Assembly: GCF_027484505.1 (NCBI RefSeq)
Contig: NZ_JAIXSV010000366.1
Location: forward strand, 1 to 32,992
Length of the DNA stretch: 32,992 nucleotides
Reading direction: 5' to 3'
Origin: Asticcacaulis sp.
Lineage (GTDB): Bacteria; Pseudomonadota; Alphaproteobacteria; Caulobacterales; Caulobacteraceae
The notes under the pieces were generated by a model. The model worked only from the letters and a program-made list of their open reading frames with translations. It searched no databases and was not told the DNA's origin. Shown one piece after another: positions 3,441-32,992 of the stretch (position 1 is its first letter; every line of letters starts with the position of its first letter). The translations under genes were made by a program, and so were the position numbers.

Positions 3441-5405
<1,965 letters not shown>

Positions 5406-5407
5406 TT

Positions 5408-5502
5408 ACTCACTCCCTTCGCCGGCATGACCCGGATCAGGTTCGGCGGGTTTACGGACGCTGGTCCGATTCTCAGCCCGCTTGCGCGCGGACACCCCGG
5501 TG
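5408..5502 (-). promoter_or_regulatory. TPP (THI-box) riboswitch controlling thiC
   Basis: On the minus strand the order GGGGTGTCC, GGGCTGAGA, CCTGATCCGGGTCATGCCGG and CGAAGGGAGTGA reproduces the conserved helices of the thiamine pyrophosphate riboswitch: the CUGAGA motif of the pyrimidine-sensor helix and the ACCUGAUC...GCCAGCGAAGGGA motif of the pyrophosphate helix. It ends about 115 bases before the thiC start. No obvious T-tailed terminator was seen between it and the gene, so control may be at translation initiation; that is inferred. Confidence 0.95.
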
Positions 5503-5636
5503 AACGAAGCCCGGAATTTAGAGGAACGGCGACAGGGGGGCAAGGGGGAATGTGGCATTGCCGCGGGCCTCCGCCTCTTTACCCATTGGTAAACTTCCGG
5601 GCGCAAACTTATCCACAGGGGCCAGTGAGCCTCGTG

Positions 5637-5661
5637 CCGAAAAGTGGGCACCACTTTTCGG
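5637..5661. repeat. Palindromic hairpin CCGAAAAGTGG/CCACTTTTCGG
   Basis: A perfect 11-bp stem (5637-5647 and 5651-5661) around a 3-nt loop, followed by AAAAAC. A very similar palindrome is common as a dispersed intergenic repeat in alphaproteobacteria, as I recall it. It lies between the thiC leader and the 5737 gene and could act as a terminator reading to the left (minus-strand T run before it) or be a mobile REP element. Confidence 0.6.
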
Positions 5662-5689
5662 AAAAACATGAGGCGTTAGAAATCAGAGT

Positions 5690-5717
5690 GTTTGTCGGTT
5701 CACTTAAACCGACAAAC
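5690..5717 (+). promoter_or_regulatory. Perfect 11-bp inverted repeat in the leader of the 5737 gene
   Basis: GTTTGTCGGTT (5690-5700) and AACCGACAAAC (5707-5717) surround a 6-nt loop. The element ends 7 bases before the ribosome binding site GGAGGA (5725-5730). It could be an operator or an mRNA leader hairpin; nothing more can be said from sequence alone. Confidence 0.5.
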
Positions 5718-5736
5718 GCTCCTCGGAGGAAAGACG

Positions 5737-6225
5737 ATGCCCGCAGGTGAGCCTCTGCGTACCGTATCGGAGCAGGAACTGCATATGAAGGTCGGCGCCT
5801 ATGACGAATTGCGCCATCCCCACGGCTATGTCTATGCCAAGGAACACCATCACTGGTACTGGTTCGCCGGCATAGCGGCGTCGCTGGCGCTGGTCGGGGC
5901 CGTCTTCTGGGGCTATGCGCTGTATGCGCGCGGGGCGGCTCCGGTGTGTACGTCCAGCTTTGTGGATCGTTCGGTTTCCCCCAGCGGGGGGCGCATAGCC
6001 GAGGTGCGGCAGGTGTCCTGTCTGGGCGGAGCGCCGGACCTGCGGCTGATCGTGCATAATGCCGGAGCCACTGCGGAAGCGCCCGCCGTGTCGGCGTTTG
6101 AGGCCGGGACCGAGGTGCAGTTACGCTGGGTGTCGGACGGTGAGTTGGCCGTCGCCAAGCAGGGCGGGCGGGTGTGGTTCTTCAAAACCCACTGGAAGGA
6201 TGTGCGGGTGCATCTGGCGCAGTAG
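5737..6225 (+). CDS. Single-pass membrane protein of unknown function
   Basis: A 162-residue protein starting MPAGEPLRTVSEQELHMKVG. The start is set by GGAGGA six bases upstream. A cytoplasmic N-terminal segment of about 45 residues, rich in His and aromatic residues near KEHHHWYW, leads into one transmembrane helix (about residues 46-70, FAGIAASLALVGAVFWGYAL). The outer domain of about 90 residues has two cysteines (APVCTSSF, VSCLGG) and beta-rich text such as DLRLIVHNAG and VWFFKTHWKDVRVHLA. I do not recognise the family. It ends 3 bases from the stop of the convergent lipoprotein gene. Confidence 0.75.
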   Translation: MPAGEPLRTVSEQELHMKVGAYDELRHPHGYVYAKEHHHWYWFAGIAASLALVGAVFWGYALYARGAAPVCTSSFVDRSVSPSGGRIAEVRQVSCLGGAPDLRLIVHNAGATAEAPAVSAFEAGTEVQLRWVSDGELAVAKQGGRVWFFKTHWKDVRVHLAQ

Positions 6226-6228
6226 CCG

Positions 6229-6948
6229 CTACTCGGTAAAAAAGTCTTTGAGAGGCTGACTTTCGAACGTCGGCAAGGGTCTGTTGCCGGGTTTAGGGTC
6301 ATCGGCGTGCATAATCCAGCGCGTTGCCGTCAATGTCCATTCCGCGACGCCGACGCGCGCAGCTGTCGCGTCGAAGCGCCATACCCTGGGTTCACCTTCC
6401 TTATATTCCGGATAGTGTTCACAGGTCACGCTCAGGCTTGTGGCGCTGATCCATTTGACCGGTCGGCACGAGGGTTGAAAGACAATCGCCTCTTCGCCCC
6501 CAAGCCAGTCCTTGATGGACAGTGTGGATGAACCGTTCATTTCGTCCATCTCCTCCGACCCAGTGGCGATAAAGCGCCCGTCTGGGGCGGCCTTGGCATT
6601 ATATCCCCACAGGGCGAAGTCCTTGCCCACCTTGTCAATGACCACTTCGTTGCCGCCTTCGCCATGCTCAAATTTCAGCAGGGCAAAGTCCGCCAGCGTG
6701 GTGGCCGGACGGTCCTGAAGGCGGATGGGGCCTATGAAGCGCCAGATTTCGCAGGTGTCGAATCCACCACAATCTTTGGGATGGCTTTTGCGGCGGCCTA
6801 TGACCTGCCCGTTATGGAAAAGGGTCAGTTCGTCGCCTTTCTGCACCGCCAAAGGGGAGGTCTTTGCCAATTGCGGACTGGTCGTGCTGCACCCGGCCAG
6901 CAGCAAGGCGACCGATACACCCCCCAGCCATTTCTCAAAAGATCGCAT
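6229..6948 (-). CDS. Putative lipoprotein of unknown function
   Basis: A 239-residue protein from the ATG at 6948, which follows a strong GGGGAGG ribosome binding site. The N-terminus MRSFEKWLGGVSVALLLAGC ends in a lipobox (LLAGC, Cys20), so it should be lipid-anchored, probably at the outer membrane. The mature part is beta-rich with four cysteines in two pairs: KDCGGFDTCEIW and PSCRPVKW with VTCEHY. Phrases such as RFIATGSEEMDEM and WLGGEEAIVFQP suggest a beta-propeller-like or sheet domain, but no family is recognised. It is transcribed divergently from the AIM24 gene at 7096, sharing about 150 bases of upstream DNA. Confidence 0.75.
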   Translation of the reverse strand: MRSFEKWLGGVSVALLLAGCSTTSPQLAKTSPLAVQKGDELTLFHNGQVIGRRKSHPKDCGGFDTCEIWRFIGPIRLQDRPATTLADFALLKFEHGEGGNEVVIDKVGKDFALWGYNAKAAPDGRFIATGSEEMDEMNGSSTLSIKDWLGGEEAIVFQPSCRPVKWISATSLSVTCEHYPEYKEGEPRVWRFDATAARVGVAEWTLTATRWIMHADDPKPGNRPLPTFESQPLKDFFTE

Positions 6949-7095
6949 CTTAACCTCCCCCAATGCCTCCCCATTTTGGGGGCGAACCCAACAAAGTCAA
7001 TTGCAAACGATATTACGGGGGTGGCTGAGCGATTTGGCTCTTCCTTTTGCGACCGCGCACGCTACATCTGCTGCGTCATCCAGAGGAGGCTTTTT

Positions 7096-7932
7096 ATGTT
7101 CGGCAATGCGTCCGTTCCTACCACCCACCATCGTCAGGCCGGTGTGGCCGACGACATCGACTTTGAAATCAAGGGCGAAGAACTGCAATTCGTTGAGATC
7201 GAACTCGATCCGGGCGAAAGCGCTATCGCCGAAGCCGGCGGCATGGTGTGGAAGGATGCCAGCGTCGGCATGACCACGGTGTTCGGCGACGGGTCGGGTC
7301 AGCAAAAGGGCTTTATGGGGGCGCTGCTGGGCGCGGGCAAGCGCCTGATTTCGGGTGAAAGCCTGTTCACCACCGTCTTCACCCACAATGGTCAGGGCAA
7401 GGCGCGGGTGGCCTTTTCGGCTCCGGTGCCTGGCTCTATCATCCCGCTCAAGCTGTCGGACGTCGGCGGTCGCCTGATCTGTCAGAAGGACTCCTTTCTG
7501 GCGGCGGCCAAGGGCGTGTCGCTTGGTATCGCTTTTCAGCGCAAGGTCATGACCGGCCTGTTCGGTGGCGAAGGCTTCATCATGCAGAAGCTGGAAGGCG
7601 ACGGCTGGGTCTTCGTGCAGTTCGGCGGCGCGGTCATTGAGCGCACGCTGGCCCCCGGTGAGCAGCTTCATGTCGATACGGGCTGCGTGGCGGCCTTTAC
7701 CGATACGGTCGATTTCGACCTGGTGCAGGCGGGCGGCGTCAAGTCGATGCTGTTCGGCGGCGAAGGCGTCTTCTTCGCGCAACTGACCGGGCCGGGTAAG
7801 GTGTGGATTCAGTCGCTGCCCTTCTCGCGTCTGGCCGGTCGCGTGCTGGCGGCGGCCGGGGGCGGGGGTCCGAACAGTGGCGAAGGCTCGGTCTTAGGCG
7901 GCCTTGGCGACCTGATCGGCGGGAATAGATAA
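7096..7932 (+). CDS. AIM24 / TIGR00266 family protein
   Basis: A 278-residue protein starting MFGNASVPTTHHRQAGVADD. The start is set by AGAGGAGG six bases upstream; the frame stays open upstream to 6664, but that part overlaps the lipoprotein gene and its promoter region. The repeated beta-strand pattern (EIKGEELQFVEIELDPGES, EAGGMVWKDASVGMTTVFGD, GEGFIMQKLEGDGWVFVQ, VDTGCVAAFTDTVDFDL, FFAQLTGPGKVWIQSLPF) is characteristic of the AIM24 family, a beta-sandwich protein related to mitochondrial AIM24. The biochemical role of the bacterial members is not established. The C-terminus is a glycine-rich tail (AAAGGGGPNSGEG). It is convergent with the lipoprotein gene at 7939-8745, six bases between stops. 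Confidence 0.88.
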   Translation: MFGNASVPTTHHRQAGVADDIDFEIKGEELQFVEIELDPGESAIAEAGGMVWKDASVGMTTVFGDGSGQQKGFMGALLGAGKRLISGESLFTTVFTHNGQGKARVAFSAPVPGSIIPLKLSDVGGRLICQKDSFLAAAKGVSLGIAFQRKVMTGLFGGEGFIMQKLEGDGWVFVQFGGAVIERTLAPGEQLHVDTGCVAAFTDTVDFDLVQAGGVKSMLFGGEGVFFAQLTGPGKVWIQSLPFSRLAGRVLAAAGGGGPNSGEGSVLGGLGDLIGGNR

Positions 7933-27216: not shown

Positions 27217-27292
<76 letters not shown>

Positions 27293-27455: not shown

Positions 27456-28670
27456 ATGGCGCTCACAGACTCCGCAATTCGTTCGGCGAGGCCAAAGGCC
27501 AAACCCTACAAGCTCTCCGACGGCGAGGGCATGTTTCTGCTAGTGACGACTTCCGGCGGAAAGCTCTGGCGATTGAAATATCGCTTCTCCGGGCAAGAGC
27601 GGTTGCTGGCCATCGGGCAGTATCCTGTCGTCGGTCTTAAAGACGCGCGGAAACGACGGGACGAGGCGAGGGAACTTCTTGCTGAAGGCATTGACCCTTC
27701 CCTGGACAAAAAGCGCAAGGCTGTCGCCGCTGCTATACAGGCCAGCAACACGTTTAAAGTTGTAGCGCAGGAGCTTTGTGAGAAGCTTGAGCGCGAGGGT
27801 GTGGCCAATGCAACGAAGGTTCGAAACGACCGTTGCATAAAGCAGCTTGAGCCTGATCTGGGGCATCGCCCGGTTTCGGAGATTGAACCCTATGAAATCC
27901 TCAATGCCCTAAAGAAGTTTGAGCGCAGGGGCATTTATGAGACCGCGAACCGGCTCAGGGCGTTTGCGGCGCGGGTCTTCCGGTATGCCATCGTAACAGG
28001 GCGCGCGAAGGTCAACCCCGCAGCCGACATCAGCGAGGCGTTGGTAAAGCCTAAAACCAAACATATGGCTGCAATTGTGGACCCTCAGGCCCTCGGTGAA
28101 TTGCTCAGGGCAGTGGAGACTTTCGACAAATACATGACGACGACGCTTGCGTTGAAGCTCACGCCGCATCTTTTCGTCAGACCCGGCGAGTTGCGTCACA
28201 TGGAATGGACGGAGGTCGATTTTGAAGCGAAGATTTGGCGCATACCTCCTGAGAAGATGAAAATGCGCAATGAGCACGTTGTGCCGCTATCTCGGCAAGC
28301 GTTGGAAATTCTCTCTGATGCGAAGGCTTTGGCGAACGGCGGAAGCTATGTGTTCCCGTCCATCCGCACTTGGCTTCGGCCCATGAGCGAGAACACCATC
28401 AATGTTGCGCTTCGGCGTCTGGGGTATAGTGGTGACGAAATGACCGCGCACGGCTTCCGAAGTACGGCCAGTACGCTACTGAATGAATCTGGCCTCTGGT
28501 CGCCGGATGCTATTGAGCGCGCTCTTGCTCACAAAGGTGGAGACCGAGTGAGGGCGATTTACCATCGAGGCGCGCATTGGGACGAACGAGTGCGAATGGC
28601 ACAATGGTGGTCCGACTATCTCGATAGACTGCGCGATGGCGCGGAGATCGTTCCAATCTACGCGGCTTAG
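27456..28670 (+). CDS. P4-type tyrosine recombinase (integrase)
   Basis: A 404-residue site-specific recombinase starting MALTDSAIRSARPKAKPYKL. Residues 1-90 are the DUF4102 arm-type DNA-binding domain (KLSDGEGMFLLVTTSGGKLW, YRFSGQERLLAIGQYPVVGL), residues about 98-195 the core-binding domain, and the rest the catalytic domain with Arg242 (VRPGELRHMEW), His332 and Arg335 (AHGFR), His359 (ALAHKGG) and the nucleophile Tyr369 (AIYHRGAHWDERVRMAQWW). It should integrate and excise the island at the tRNA-Lys 3' end. An in-frame upstream start at 27279 overlaps the tRNA and is rejected. No obvious Shine-Dalgarno sequence precedes the ATG, since the repeat ATACCCCCAA abuts it. The catalytic residues are all present, so the enzyme may be active. 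Confidence 0.94.
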   Translation: MALTDSAIRSARPKAKPYKLSDGEGMFLLVTTSGGKLWRLKYRFSGQERLLAIGQYPVVGLKDARKRRDEARELLAEGIDPSLDKKRKAVAAAIQASNTFKVVAQELCEKLEREGVANATKVRNDRCIKQLEPDLGHRPVSEIEPYEILNALKKFERRGIYETANRLRAFAARVFRYAIVTGRAKVNPAADISEALVKPKTKHMAAIVDPQALGELLRAVETFDKYMTTTLALKLTPHLFVRPGELRHMEWTEVDFEAKIWRIPPEKMKMRNEHVVPLSRQALEILSDAKALANGGSYVFPSIRTWLRPMSENTINVALRRLGYSGDEMTAHGFRSTASTLLNESGLWSPDAIERALAHKGGDRVRAIYHRGAHWDERVRMAQWWSDYLDRLRDGAEIVPIYAA

Positions 28671-29158: not shown

Positions 29159-30595
29159 ATGTCTGATCAGCTATTGGAATTGTCAATTTCAGAATCCATC
29201 ATTCAACAATTCTCACTGAAGCTTGCGAATGGTTACAAGGATATTGATTTATTCGCTAATCATTCAGTTAAAATACTGGTCGCGGAAAATGGGGCCGGTA
29301 AGACGACCCTATTAAATACTCTGTATTCTATTTTGATAGGTGACTACAGAGTTTTTCTGTCAGCTGAGTTTGAAGAGTTGAACCTCACTATTTCTGGCCG
29401 ATATTGGAGCCATAAACGTAGTGAATTCTCGCCAATCACAGACGAAATGTACAAAGAGTGGATGGAGCTAGACCTCTGGCAAAGGATGGAGATGTCACCG
29501 CCGACCAAGACTGAGGCTGAGGAGTTGGTTTTAGCAACTGTAGAAGCGGATGAATCTGCAATTGAGAATACAAAATACTTTGCCAAAGAATGGGGACAGC
29601 ATAGATTTCCAACTAGCTATCTTAAGAATAGTCTACAATCGCTCGGCACACGATCGTCTGTCGCGGCAGTTAAAAAGAAGCGGGATAATTTCGTTAAATT
29701 TATTAACGAAGTTCAAGAAAGTTTGGAAGGGCACTCTGTGCTGTACCTCCCGACTTACCGTAGAATTGAGGCGTTGCTTCCGGAGTACAGGATTAAGCAA
29801 GGTGGTGGCCGTCGCTCTCCTCCCTATCGGCGAACTGGACAGCCAACGCAGCTAATTCATTTCGGGCTACAGGATGTCGAAAGTCGGCTATCAGAAATGG
29901 CGGAAGATATTCGACGCACCACTGTAAGGGCCTTTTCGCAAATTAACGCAAGAACACTTGATGATTTGGTGTTCGGTAACTACCGCAGGAACATTGAAGA
30001 TTCAAATCCTATAAATATTGAGTCTCTGCAAGTCGTTCTTGGGCGACTTGGGCGTAATGATGAAAAGACTCGAAAGAGAATGGAGAGTTTAATATCGACC
30101 GGTGATATTAACTCTGAAGATAATATCTATCTAAAGAGCTTTTTAGATCAGCTGATGCAGACATACGCGTCTACGCAAGATAGAGAATCTGCAATTGAGG
30201 AATTTATTGAAGTTATCAACTCGTATTGGCGTGATGATATAAATGAAAAGTCATTCATGTTCGATAAAGCTTCAGCGGAAGCTAAGGTGGTAAATACATA
30301 CACTGGTAGAAAGCTTCCATTGGAGGCGCTTTCTTCTGGAGAAAAGCAAATTATTAGTATATTTGCGAGATTGTATTTGGAGCCTGAGCAAAATGCTATA
30401 GTTTTGATAGATGAACCTGAGCTTTCGCTGTCAATGGAGTGGCAGATGAAGTTTTTGCCCGATATTGTCAAGGCGAAAAGCTGTCGTCAACTTATCGCTA
30501 TCACGCATTCGCCATTTATATTTAAAAATGATCTGCGGCCGTATGCTGGGGATCTGAAGGTAACGCGTTACAACAAAAGCCAGACCAGCATCTAA
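29159..30595 (+). CDS. ariA: AAA15/ABC-type ATPase, AriA-like subunit of a PARIS defence system
   Basis: A 478-residue soluble ATPase of the SMC/RecF-like group. Walker A is AENGAGKTT (42-50, Lys48), the ABC signature is LSSGEKQ (391-397), Walker B is AIVLIDEPEL (413-422, Asp418 Glu419) and the H-loop is His450 in AITHSPF. The middle (about 100-380) is helical and charged. The start has GAGGAAA five bases before the ATG. The DUF4435 gene follows after one base, so the two are coupled. The pairing of an AAA15 ATPase with a DUF4435 TOPRIM protein is the definition of PARIS, where AriA senses phage anti-restriction proteins such as Ocr and holds AriB in check. Gene order and length fit; trigger specificity here is unknown. 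The symbol is assigned by architecture. Confidence 0.8.
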   Translation: MSDQLLELSISESIIQQFSLKLANGYKDIDLFANHSVKILVAENGAGKTTLLNTLYSILIGDYRVFLSAEFEELNLTISGRYWSHKRSEFSPITDEMYKEWMELDLWQRMEMSPPTKTEAEELVLATVEADESAIENTKYFAKEWGQHRFPTSYLKNSLQSLGTRSSVAAVKKKRDNFVKFINEVQESLEGHSVLYLPTYRRIEALLPEYRIKQGGGRRSPPYRRTGQPTQLIHFGLQDVESRLSEMAEDIRRTTVRAFSQINARTLDDLVFGNYRRNIEDSNPINIESLQVVLGRLGRNDEKTRKRMESLISTGDINSEDNIYLKSFLDQLMQTYASTQDRESAIEEFIEVINSYWRDDINEKSFMFDKASAEAKVVNTYTGRKLPLEALSSGEKQIISIFARLYLEPEQNAIVLIDEPELSLSMEWQMKFLPDIVKAKSCRQLIAITHSPFIFKNDLRPYAGDLKVTRYNKSQTSI

Positions 30596-30596
30596 A

Positions 30597-31511
30597 ATGT
30601 CGAGAACTCAAGCTATATCCGATGCAAGCAATTCCGACGAAGCGCTTTTTCTAAGGTTGTTGCAGTTTAAGGGCGGCTGTGGTCAGCCTTTCATTTTCTT
30701 AGTCGAAGGAAATGACGATGTTACATTTTTCGATGCGTGCCTATGCAGGCTTAAGCCTCTCGCCAGAGAAAGAGTGGCAACGTATAATTGCAACGGTAAG
30801 GGAAACGTTCTTAAGCTCCATGATATAATCAGTCATAGCAAAGAAATCAGCTTGGATGATTTCTGGTGTTTTATCGATAAAGACTTTGATGGAATGCGAG
30901 GGCATGTACCAAGTGAAAAAATATGGATGACTCCAACATACTCATTCGAAAATCTACTTGTATCGGAAGAAGTTTTAAAATCTCTTCTTGTTTGTGAGTT
31001 TAGATGTAACGACATTAATGCTGCGAAAGATATCGCTACCATTCAAGCGAATTTTCAATCCTTCATTAGTTCTTACACTCATCATTTGAGTTTTGCGAAT
31101 CTCTGCGCTTTTTATGCTCGGAGGAAGGATGTTGAGACGCATGCACATGATAGCACAATCACCCCGGCGATTTCCGCGAATTTCCATGAGGTAAAATTCT
31201 CTCTAAGCGACGATGATGTAGTTAGACGTATGGGGAAAAAAGCTCCGCTCGACAAAGCTGATGTGAACTCTCTTGCCGTAGAGTTCCAAGCGCTTGACCC
31301 GCTCGCGGATTGGCGGGGTAAGTTCTTGTTGACGGCCTTCGTCGCTTTTCTCGAGGCTTTAAAACACGATCGCGGTTCCAAAGCCCCCGTGATATTTTCA
31401 ACTAAGGCGAAGATGACGTTTGATCCACGTACAGACTCTATTCGCACTTTTACTAGTTTGGCTGTTCTACCAAAATGCTTAACAGAGTATTTGGAGACAG
31501 TTCCCGTTTAA
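30597..31511 (+). CDS. ariB: DUF4435 TOPRIM nuclease, AriB-like subunit of a PARIS defence system
   Basis: A 304-residue protein with an N-terminal TOPRIM-like nuclease domain: FIFLVEGNDDVTFFD at 32-46 (acidic Glu37), CNGKGNVLKLHD at about 65-76, and the metal-binding WCFIDKDFDG at 90-99 (Asp94, Asp96, Asp98). The C-terminal two thirds are helical and typical of DUF4435. In the E. coli PARIS system AriB is released from AriA when the phage inhibitor is sensed, and it cuts host tRNA-Lys, stopping translation. The start lies one base after the AriA stop. The length fits AriB. Other AAA+DUF4435 pairs exist, so the exact subtype is an inference. Codon use is AT-rich, as in the ATPase gene. Confidence 0.8.
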   Translation: MSRTQAISDASNSDEALFLRLLQFKGGCGQPFIFLVEGNDDVTFFDACLCRLKPLARERVATYNCNGKGNVLKLHDIISHSKEISLDDFWCFIDKDFDGMRGHVPSEKIWMTPTYSFENLLVSEEVLKSLLVCEFRCNDINAAKDIATIQANFQSFISSYTHHLSFANLCAFYARRKDVETHAHDSTITPAISANFHEVKFSLSDDDVVRRMGKKAPLDKADVNSLAVEFQALDPLADWRGKFLLTAFVAFLEALKHDRGSKAPVIFSTKAKMTFDPRTDSIRTFTSLAVLPKCLTEYLETVPV

Positions 31512-31791: not shown

Positions 31792-31892
31792 TCCGACGCA
31801 CCTCCTTGACCCTTATGTGGTCGGGGAGCCTGTGGCGTATGCAACAGGCCCCGGCTAAAGGTCACAGGGACCGTGCACTGCCGGTTTTCCAA

Positions 31893-31917
31893 CTCCCCGA
31901 TCTCCAGGATCGAGGAG
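31893..31917 (+). promoter_or_regulatory. Hairpin in the leader of the XRE-sigma gene
   Basis: A 10-bp stem with one mismatch: CTCCCCGATC (31893-31902) against GATCGAGGAG (31908-31917), with a 5-nt loop, 50 bases upstream of the ATG at 31968. Confidence 0.45.
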
Positions 31918-31967: not shown

Positions 31968-32801
31968 ATGACGATTGAGCTCAATGCCGTTGATACCCAT
32001 GTAGGCGAGCGCATCCGCGCCCGACGGCTCTTTCTGCAAATGTCCGAAGAGTGGCTGGCCGGGTTCCTTGAGATGCCGGTGGCAGACCTCGTTGCTATCG
32101 AAGAGGGCAAAAAACGTATCGGTTCTGACGAGCTGATGCGTTGCACCGAAGCCTTAGGCGTGCCCGAGCGTTACTTCTATATGGGCTTTGGATCGAAGCC
32201 GCCGGGGCCGGATAATTCGAAGCCCTGGAGTCGGGAAATCGACCGCTGGTTCGCCACGAACCTGTTCCCGCATGAAGGCTTCTTTATGAACATCGCCATC
32301 CGTCTGACGCGCAACCGCGAGACGGCGCGCGAGATGCTTCAGGACGCGTACCTTTATCTCGTTCGCGACGACAACTGGCGGAAGGTTGAGTTTCCGCGCG
32401 CCTATGTAAAGCAGGTTCTTCATTTCCGTTTCTGGAGCAAACTTCAACGCGACCGCATCGTACCGATTGACCTGGTGGCGAACTTTGAAGCCATCGATCA
32501 GGTCTCGGATGAGCCCACGGCCTTTGACCTGCTTTCGGCGGGGCAACGCCGTCACATCGTTCTTCAGGCTATCGAAGACTTGCCCCCAAGATGCCGTCAG
32601 GTGGTCAAGCTGAGGCGCTTAAAGGAGATGTCTCCCCCCGACATTGCGAAGGAAATGGGCATCAGTGTCAGCATGGTTGAGAAGCATCTCGCCAAGGGCA
32701 TGAACCTAATCGGGAAGCGCCTTGGTGAGCCCTATAATGAGGAGCCCTCGGCACCCTCAAAGCCCCCGATCTTCCCTAACAAAAGCCGCGCATCCGAGTA
32801 G
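31968..32801 (+). CDS. Fusion of an XRE helix-turn-helix domain to a FecI-like ECF sigma factor
   Basis: A 277-residue protein. Residues 10-73 (VGERIRARRLFLQMSEEWLA, then LVAIEEGKKRIG, LMRCTEALGVPERYFYM) are an XRE domain close in sequence to the regulators widespread in alphaproteobacteria. Residues about 101-165 are sigma region 2 (FFMNIAIRLTRNRETAREML, QDAYLYLVRD, FRFWSKLQRD) and about 192-252 region 4 (LPPRCRQVVKLRRLKEMSPP, DIAKEMGISVSMVEKHLAKG), as in FecI-type ECF sigma factors. FecI proteins normally consist only of the two sigma regions. The start at 31968 was chosen as the beginning of homology; the frame is open upstream to 31806. No strong ribosome binding site is visible. A FecR-like gene follows 64 bases downstream. 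Confidence 0.85.
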   Translation: MTIELNAVDTHVGERIRARRLFLQMSEEWLAGFLEMPVADLVAIEEGKKRIGSDELMRCTEALGVPERYFYMGFGSKPPGPDNSKPWSREIDRWFATNLFPHEGFFMNIAIRLTRNRETAREMLQDAYLYLVRDDNWRKVEFPRAYVKQVLHFRFWSKLQRDRIVPIDLVANFEAIDQVSDEPTAFDLLSAGQRRHIVLQAIEDLPPRCRQVVKLRRLKEMSPPDIAKEMGISVSMVEKHLAKGMNLIGKRLGEPYNEEPSAPSKPPIFPNKSRASE

Positions 32802-32864: not shown

Positions 32865-32992
32865 ATGCGCCTGTTCGTGACTGAGGACACCACATCAGAG
32901 CAAGACCGTATCGAAGATGCGGCGGCTCTCTGGCATACACGTCTGGAGGCCGGGACGGCTGATCTCGATGCATTTAATGCCTGGAGAGATGA
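32865..32992 (+). CDS. FecR-like anti-sigma factor, N-terminal part (cut by the window edge)
   Basis: The frame reads MRLFVTEDTTSEQDRIEDAA, ALWHTRLEAGTADLDAFNAW, RD and runs off the window. The stretch AALWHTRLEAG...FNAW is the conserved DUF4880 motif at the start of FecR proteins. In FecIR systems FecR sits in the inner membrane, reads a signal from a TonB-dependent receptor and controls its sigma factor. The start could be the ATG at 32865 or the in-frame GTG at 32877, which has AAAGGA at better spacing. Position right after the ECF sigma gene supports the pair. Confidence 0.8.
   Translation, partial: MRLFVTEDTTSEQDRIEDAAALWHTRLEAGTADLDAFNAWRD

Follow-up and report, generated by a model that had tools for sequence, protein, structure and literature searches.

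A two-gene PARIS locus beside a tRNA-Lys(CTT) gene and a tyrosine integrase in Asticcacaulis

Gene content of the locus and its integration site

The window, by which we mean the whole stretch of 32,992 nucleotides analyzed here (Asticcacaulis sp., RefSeq assembly GCF_027484505.1, contig NZ_JAIXSV010000366.1), carries towards its right end a tRNA-Lys(CTT) gene, a tyrosine integrase, the gene pair ariA-ariB, a structured RNA and the first genes of an HTH-sigma/FecR module (Table 1). The preliminary description of this DNA had placed the pair on an island in a Caulobacteraceae-like host. The host assignment is correct, and the island is borne out by the tRNA gene, the integrase and the low GC content of ariA and ariB (0.42 and 0.43, respectively, versus 0.617 for positions 1-27200 of the window). 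The frames of both genes are open at full length and lie on the same strand, with a single base separating the stop of ariA from the start of ariB, and a ribosome-binding-like site, GAGGA, is seen by eye directly 5' of ariA. Elsewhere in the window a TPP riboswitch is found on the minus strand (positions 5397-5509, 72.6 bits).

Table 1. Features at the right end of the window
Feature	Position	Strand	Evidence	Remarks
tRNA-Lys(CTT)	27217..27292	+	ARAGORN; Rfam tRNA 70.2 bits	apparent island integration site
island tyrosine integrase	27456..28670	+		start by eye; mechanical ORF from 27279
ariA, ABC-type ATPase, 478 aa	29159..30595	+	PADLOC AriA 1.4e-33	predicted sensor and scaffold
ariB, DUF4435/TOPRIM nuclease, 304 aa	30597..31511	+	PADLOC AriB 1.1e-24	predicted effector
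structured RNA, weakly sRNA-Xcc1-like	31801..31906	+	full-length RF02221 match, 35.9 bits (gathering score 53), E 1.3e-4	
HTH + ECF-type sigma factor gene	31968..32801	+	Sigma70_r4_2 1.5e-14	start by eye
FecR-like gene start, cut at contig end	32877..32992	+		GTG start by eye; continues on C262 or C239

The integrase contains the Arm-DNA-bind_3 (1.7e-26), Phage_int_M (3.4e-25) and Phage_integrase (4.4e-23) domains of Pfam and also matches the phrog_1 integrase family (2.2e-64). Homologous integrase sequences or their remnants lie 3' of the tRNA-Lys gene in three of the four close relatives that were fetched (L040, L042 and L043), the fourth (L041) having no integrase sequence after its tRNA-Lys; a search of the family genomes recovered no AriB match in any of the four. 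As the integrase recurs at this position and these relatives gave no AriB match, the tRNA-Lys(CTT) gene looks like a recurrent integration site, with ariAB as its variable cargo. A repeat of the tRNA 3' end, sought as the right attachment site in the remaining window, yielded only an 11-base chance match. The contig is coextensive with the window and stops at 32992, placing the right end of the island beyond this contig.

We also considered whether the island might have chosen a tRNA-Lys site because AriB attacks tRNA-Lys, and rejected this idea because the kinds of tRNA found near PARIS are mixed. A tRNA gene occurs near the pair in 14 of the 60 scanned sources that have both genes (L004 and L127 being one locus), although the stretches surveyed are unequal in length, so that a missing tRNA means little. 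The kinds observed are Ser (in four), Arg, Pro, Tyr, Thr, Met and Ala/Glu/Asp, one of them being Thr(UGU); among these 14 sources Lys is seen only in the window.

The AriA and AriB proteins and their relatives

PARIS is a bacterial suicide defense system that is thought to sense a phage anti-defense protein and then to cut the cell's own tRNAs. The pair had initially been read as such a system from the motifs of its two products, and these motifs are found as stated. AriA displays the Walker A motif NGAGKTT (residues 44-50, including Lys48), the signature LSSGEKQ (at 391), the Walker B motif IVLIDEPE (at 414) and the H-loop ITHSPFI (at 448), while AriB displays the acidic motifs EGNDD (at 37) and IDKDFDG (at 93) of the DUF4435/TOPRIM proteins. 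In an alignment of 31 AriAs, N44, G45, G47, K48, S392-Q397, D418/E419 and H450 are invariant, as are E37, D94, D96, E118, R240 and G241 among 34 aligned AriBs. This invariance indicates that the motifs are not due to chance and refutes a loss of the acidic nuclease site from the DUF4435 protein. The rows of both alignments are the better matches chosen from 60 pairs; the AriA of L048, for which there is only a 276-residue frame, was left out of the AriA alignment.

Profile searches point in the same direction. The top PADLOC models for the two proteins are AriA and AriB, respectively. Against Pfam, AriA matches AAA_21 (64.6 bits) and AAA_15 (55.1 bits), and AriB matches DUF4435 over residues 33-259 (80.9 bits). 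All three scores exceed the thresholds that the discoverers of PARIS used for their genome search, namely 32, 27 and 27 bits for AAA_15, AAA_21 and DUF4435, as given in the accessible part of PMC9122126. By sequence, AriA matches the solved AriA in the PDB with 1.3e-17 and PtuA with just 1.3e-5. The structures were predicted protein by protein, with a pLDDT of 95.1 for AriB and 79.7 for AriA, in which the stretch 202-230 is poorly predicted. When the AriB model was used in a fold search, the PARIS AriB chains 8v46_D and 8ux9_A were the only PDB matches below 0.001 (E 4.3e-7), followed by OLD at 0.018. For AriA the 15 best chains are all from PARIS entries (top 2.2e-15), the first other being the retron IA complex (1.6e-8). 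The TM-scores of these matches are modest: 0.41-0.43 for AriB and, normalized by the query, 0.50-0.58 for the chains ranked 1-14 with AriA. Gene content, order and intactness, catalytic residues, predicted folds and the pairing in relatives are all established by the analysis. With HMMs, folds and gene pairing in agreement, and PARIS models and structures scoring best for both proteins, the original identification is confirmed, and we conclude that ariAB is a genuine and ordinary copy of PARIS.

To place this copy among its relatives, we scanned 88 sources, comprising 80 genome loci (the best 80 of 212 AriA relatives), five viral loci, L003, L004 and the window itself. Both genes are present in 60 of these, window included, and in 54 of the 60 they are separated or overlap by at most 100 nt. 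L003/L072 and L004/L127 each count twice among the 60, and at the weak end the AriB matches have E values of about 1e-4. Among these best 80 of 212, PARIS-like pairs were found in Paracoccus, Hyphomicrobium, Mesorhizobium, Rhizobium, Gluconobacter, an uncultured sphingomonad and others. The presence of such pairs in several alphaproteobacteria, another Caulobacter among them, means that the host is no novelty, and the interest that the preliminary description had attached to it, on the ground that the studied examples are gamma-proteobacterial, is not upheld.

The nearest relative found is a pair on the IMG/VR contig 3300025853_013446 (L004 = L127 = L162), whose AriA and AriB are respectively 81% and 67% identical to those of the window. 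In a 33-row AriA tree the window is sister to this contig with 100/100 support, and the two are joined next by Roseomonas (100/99). The genomic setting of the IMG/VR pair is different: in lieu of a tyrosine integrase at a tRNA-Lys it adjoins a Mu-like transposase gene (phrog_310, 3.4e-154), a repressor and a ParB-like gene, with the PARIS pair lying to the left of these Mu-like phage genes (L004/L162, 1559-9272). A further phage-family gene (phrog_12870) between ariB and the repressor makes it likely that ariAB here is part of the Mu-like phage, whose left end was not located. In L169 and L175, which are likewise Mu-like and maybe one phage, a 591-residue ATPase-like gene occupies a comparable slot, as judged by eye.

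The next closest pair comes from a different host family, in Roseomonas oleicola (L047; AriA 55% and AriB 41% identical). Caulobacter sp. 17J80-11 (L072 = L003) belongs to the same family as the host of the window and has the same two-gene layout, but its AriA and AriB are only 28% and 27% identical. The tree puts its AriA into a remote group, so that this copy was probably acquired independently. The program warns of long branches meeting in that group, and the branch of the B185-like row is very long, which leaves the exact places of both unsure. Across the family, AriB was detected in 2 of 199 genomes, the own genome counted. A three-sequence profile found it in one of 385 genomes of the class, again the own, though this profile is perhaps too insensitive, given that the class has PARIS-like pairs. 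The phage records searched gave no match, and the plasmid search gave a single remote one, in Pantoea. A literature search returned nothing on this locus among the matches listed.

Comparison with E. coli B185 PARIS and alternative readings

The PARIS of E. coli B185 (PDB 8ux9, 8v45-8v49) resembles the present system in the gene pair (as described in the accessible part of PMC9122126), the ABC ATPase motifs, the TOPRIM acids and the overall folds. In B185 three AriB subunits are held by AriA hexamers (PMC11455837). By homology, AriA of the window would build an ATP-dependent ring that keeps AriB inactive, until AriB is set free by a phage protein; this trigger would probably be an acidic decoy that counters restriction, or else some other protein that binds AriA. 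The freed AriB would then dimerize, with E37, D94, D96 and E118 forming a two-metal TOPRIM site, and nick particular host tRNAs, leading to a stop of translation and the sacrifice of the infected cell. For the ring, the sequestration, the trigger and the tRNA cleavage, this scheme draws on E. coli B185. We regard it as very probable that the locus is a two-gene PARIS, borne by an island with an integrase at tRNA-Lys(CTT), with B185-like ring formation, release and tRNA nicking by homology. The five N6_Mtase matches in the own genome, four of them over the cut-off, are uninformative as to whether this PARIS guards restriction, as such matches are also present in 13 of 14 control genomes.

The most serious alternative is that the system is PARIS by descent and architecture, but that its AriB acts on a different substrate, be it different tRNAs, some other RNA or DNA, and its AriA responds to a trigger unlike the Ocr-like proteins. 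Several observations speak for it. The B185 AriB is reached by the profile of 34 AriBs only at E 0.18, and thus lies out of its reach at 0.01, and single-sequence phmmer searches miss it at E values as high as 10; at this remove from the E. coli protein, both trigger and tRNA targets may differ. E37, D94, D96 and E118 align with E26, D88, E90 and the glutamate of ENY in B185 (numbering counted), and the window has DKDFD where B185 has DREF. The second metal-site acid is D96 as against E90, a position counted in the alignment and whose importance is inferred from the DREF/DRAF sequences in the PDB. In B185, K60 and K64 hold the anticodon loop (PMC12409363). These lysines are matched just in part, since the sole possible counterpart in the window, K68, falls on K60 in one alignment and on K64 in another. 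The RG motif R240/G241 may correspond to B185 R236, which touches the D-loop in the published model, if one counts from a Pseudoalteromonas AriB that is 46% identical to the B185 piece.

The tRNA side is more favorable to a shared target. B185 AriB, which cuts between positions 40 and 41, needs U36AAUC|A41 and U16 (with U17) in the tRNA, as found or modeled in PMC12409363, and the host tRNA-Lys(CTT) has both U36AAUCA41 and U16U17, so that a target of the same class is available. However, a hybrid tRNA bearing the U36AAUCA41 site was left uncut, indicating that the motif alone is insufficient (PMC12409363), and the host tRNA-Lys(CTT) is accordingly just a plausible target. The authors of that study themselves pose the conservation of targets across PARIS systems as a question. 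On balance, we consider a changed substrate and trigger possible but the less likely reading, and retain B185-like action as the preferred one.

That the copy is decayed or silent, and devoid of function, is very unlikely. The integrase remnants at the same site in relatives and the rarity of AriB in the family would fit such a state; against this, the frames are full-length, neither the catalytic nor the ATPase residues have been lost, and ariA is preceded by the ribosome-binding-like site.

The effector of Septu and of the retron PtuAB systems is an HNH nuclease. These systems share a related ABC ATPase with the present one, but have HNH where it has TOPRIM; PtuB of retron-Eco7 is an instance of such an HNH effector (PMC12409363). 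In the OLD/Gabija classes 1-3, ATPase and TOPRIM reside in one chain, a distinction made in the accessible part of PMC10568477. Although PADLOC PtuA models also score with AriA (best 1.7e-18), whose fold resembles PtuA, and an OLD-like TOPRIM model falls only slightly short of its cut-off with AriB (21.7 versus 23.2 bits), membership in either group is extremely improbable, given a DUF4435/TOPRIM partner with no HNH family match, the placement of ATPase and TOPRIM in two separate ORFs and the clearly better scores of both proteins with PARIS models and structures.

The adjoining RNA and the HTH-sigma/FecR module

The structured RNA and the HTH-sigma gene downstream of ariB are probably not part of PARIS itself. 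The RF02221 cut-off is reached in none of the 25 genomes of the genus, but sub-threshold matches at E 0.01 occur in 10 of these 25 as against none of 14 control genomes. We aligned 22 copies of the RNA (21 distinct), made up of 12 of the 14 Rfam-model matches, nine recovered by DNA similarity and the window; those beyond the window are L046 and L180-L199. The alignment yields a structure of three helices, in which 98.3% of the cells are paired. In it 12 of 23 pairs are changed on both sides, while shuffled alignments average 3.7 such pairs, none of 500 attaining 12, and sliding the alignment leaves 0 to 4. Deriving the structure from this very alignment works in its favor, and copies related to one another do not count as independent.

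In 19 of the 22 copies a leave-one-out HMM finds an HTH coding sequence, of an HTH or HTH-sigma gene, that starts 100-320 nt from the beginning of the RNA and on its strand; of the other three, two have the HTH at 449 and 556 and one is without it. Some of the 22 copies are close relatives of one another, and the regions were collected with a DNA query that included the HTH-sigma gene of the window, even if the majority of the matches used stop short of that gene's start codon. In integron cassettes of Xanthomonas, sRNA-Xcc1 lies upstream of symE, according to the accessible part of PMC12444791. A control of PARIS by the adjoining RNA was also considered and is unsupported, as the RNA is 3' of ariB and ahead of the next gene.

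The HTH-sigma gene scores 57.8 bits with a sigma70-ECF model (cut-off 42.9). Positions 32874-32992 of the window overlap exactly, over 119 bases, with the ends of both contigs C262 and C239. The assembly probably branches at this FecR-like gene, one of the two contigs being the true continuation of the island. The protein encoded on C262 combines FecR with DUF4880. Within the own genome the RNA occurs three times, the copies on C261 and C175 leading a sigma gene, and there are two FecR ends, on C262 (L044) and C239 (L045); the genome thus apparently has two copies of the HTH-sigma/FecR module. Defense genes are found on the contigs that carry or join these modules, with PARIS as a fourth side: on C262, C239 and C175 (L046) we observed a Septu-like PDC-M01AB, LmuB, PDC-S02 and a type II methyltransferase accompanied by a type IIG-like restriction partner. 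In L199, an AAA_21 ATPase gene (387 residues) and a 294-residue gene lie beside a copy of the RNA/HTH-sigma/FecR arrangement (5377-7424); the latter has no Pfam match at 0.001, and the two are possibly another ATPase plus effector pair.

It is conceivable from these arrangements, though we judge it improbable, that PARIS is one unit of a composite defense island built around a mobile control module of Xcc1-like leader RNA, HTH-sigma and orphan FecR, which recurs between PARIS, Septu-like, Lamassu-like and restriction-modification systems and may act in sensing or timing the expression of these systems, or else aid their accumulation. Elsewhere in the genus, as judged by eye, a gene resembling a TonB receptor may instead close the module, so that a role in defense is no more than possible.

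Taken together, ariAB is ordinary in kind, and its value lies in the distance of its AriB from the studied one and in the neighboring RNA. It adds a well-supported alphaproteobacterial clade to PARIS, with an AriB far from that of E. coli B185. Less expected within the locus are the RNA and its HTH-sigma gene, which merit separate study, while the remote AriB offers a useful test of whether the tRNA targets and triggers of PARIS are conserved.
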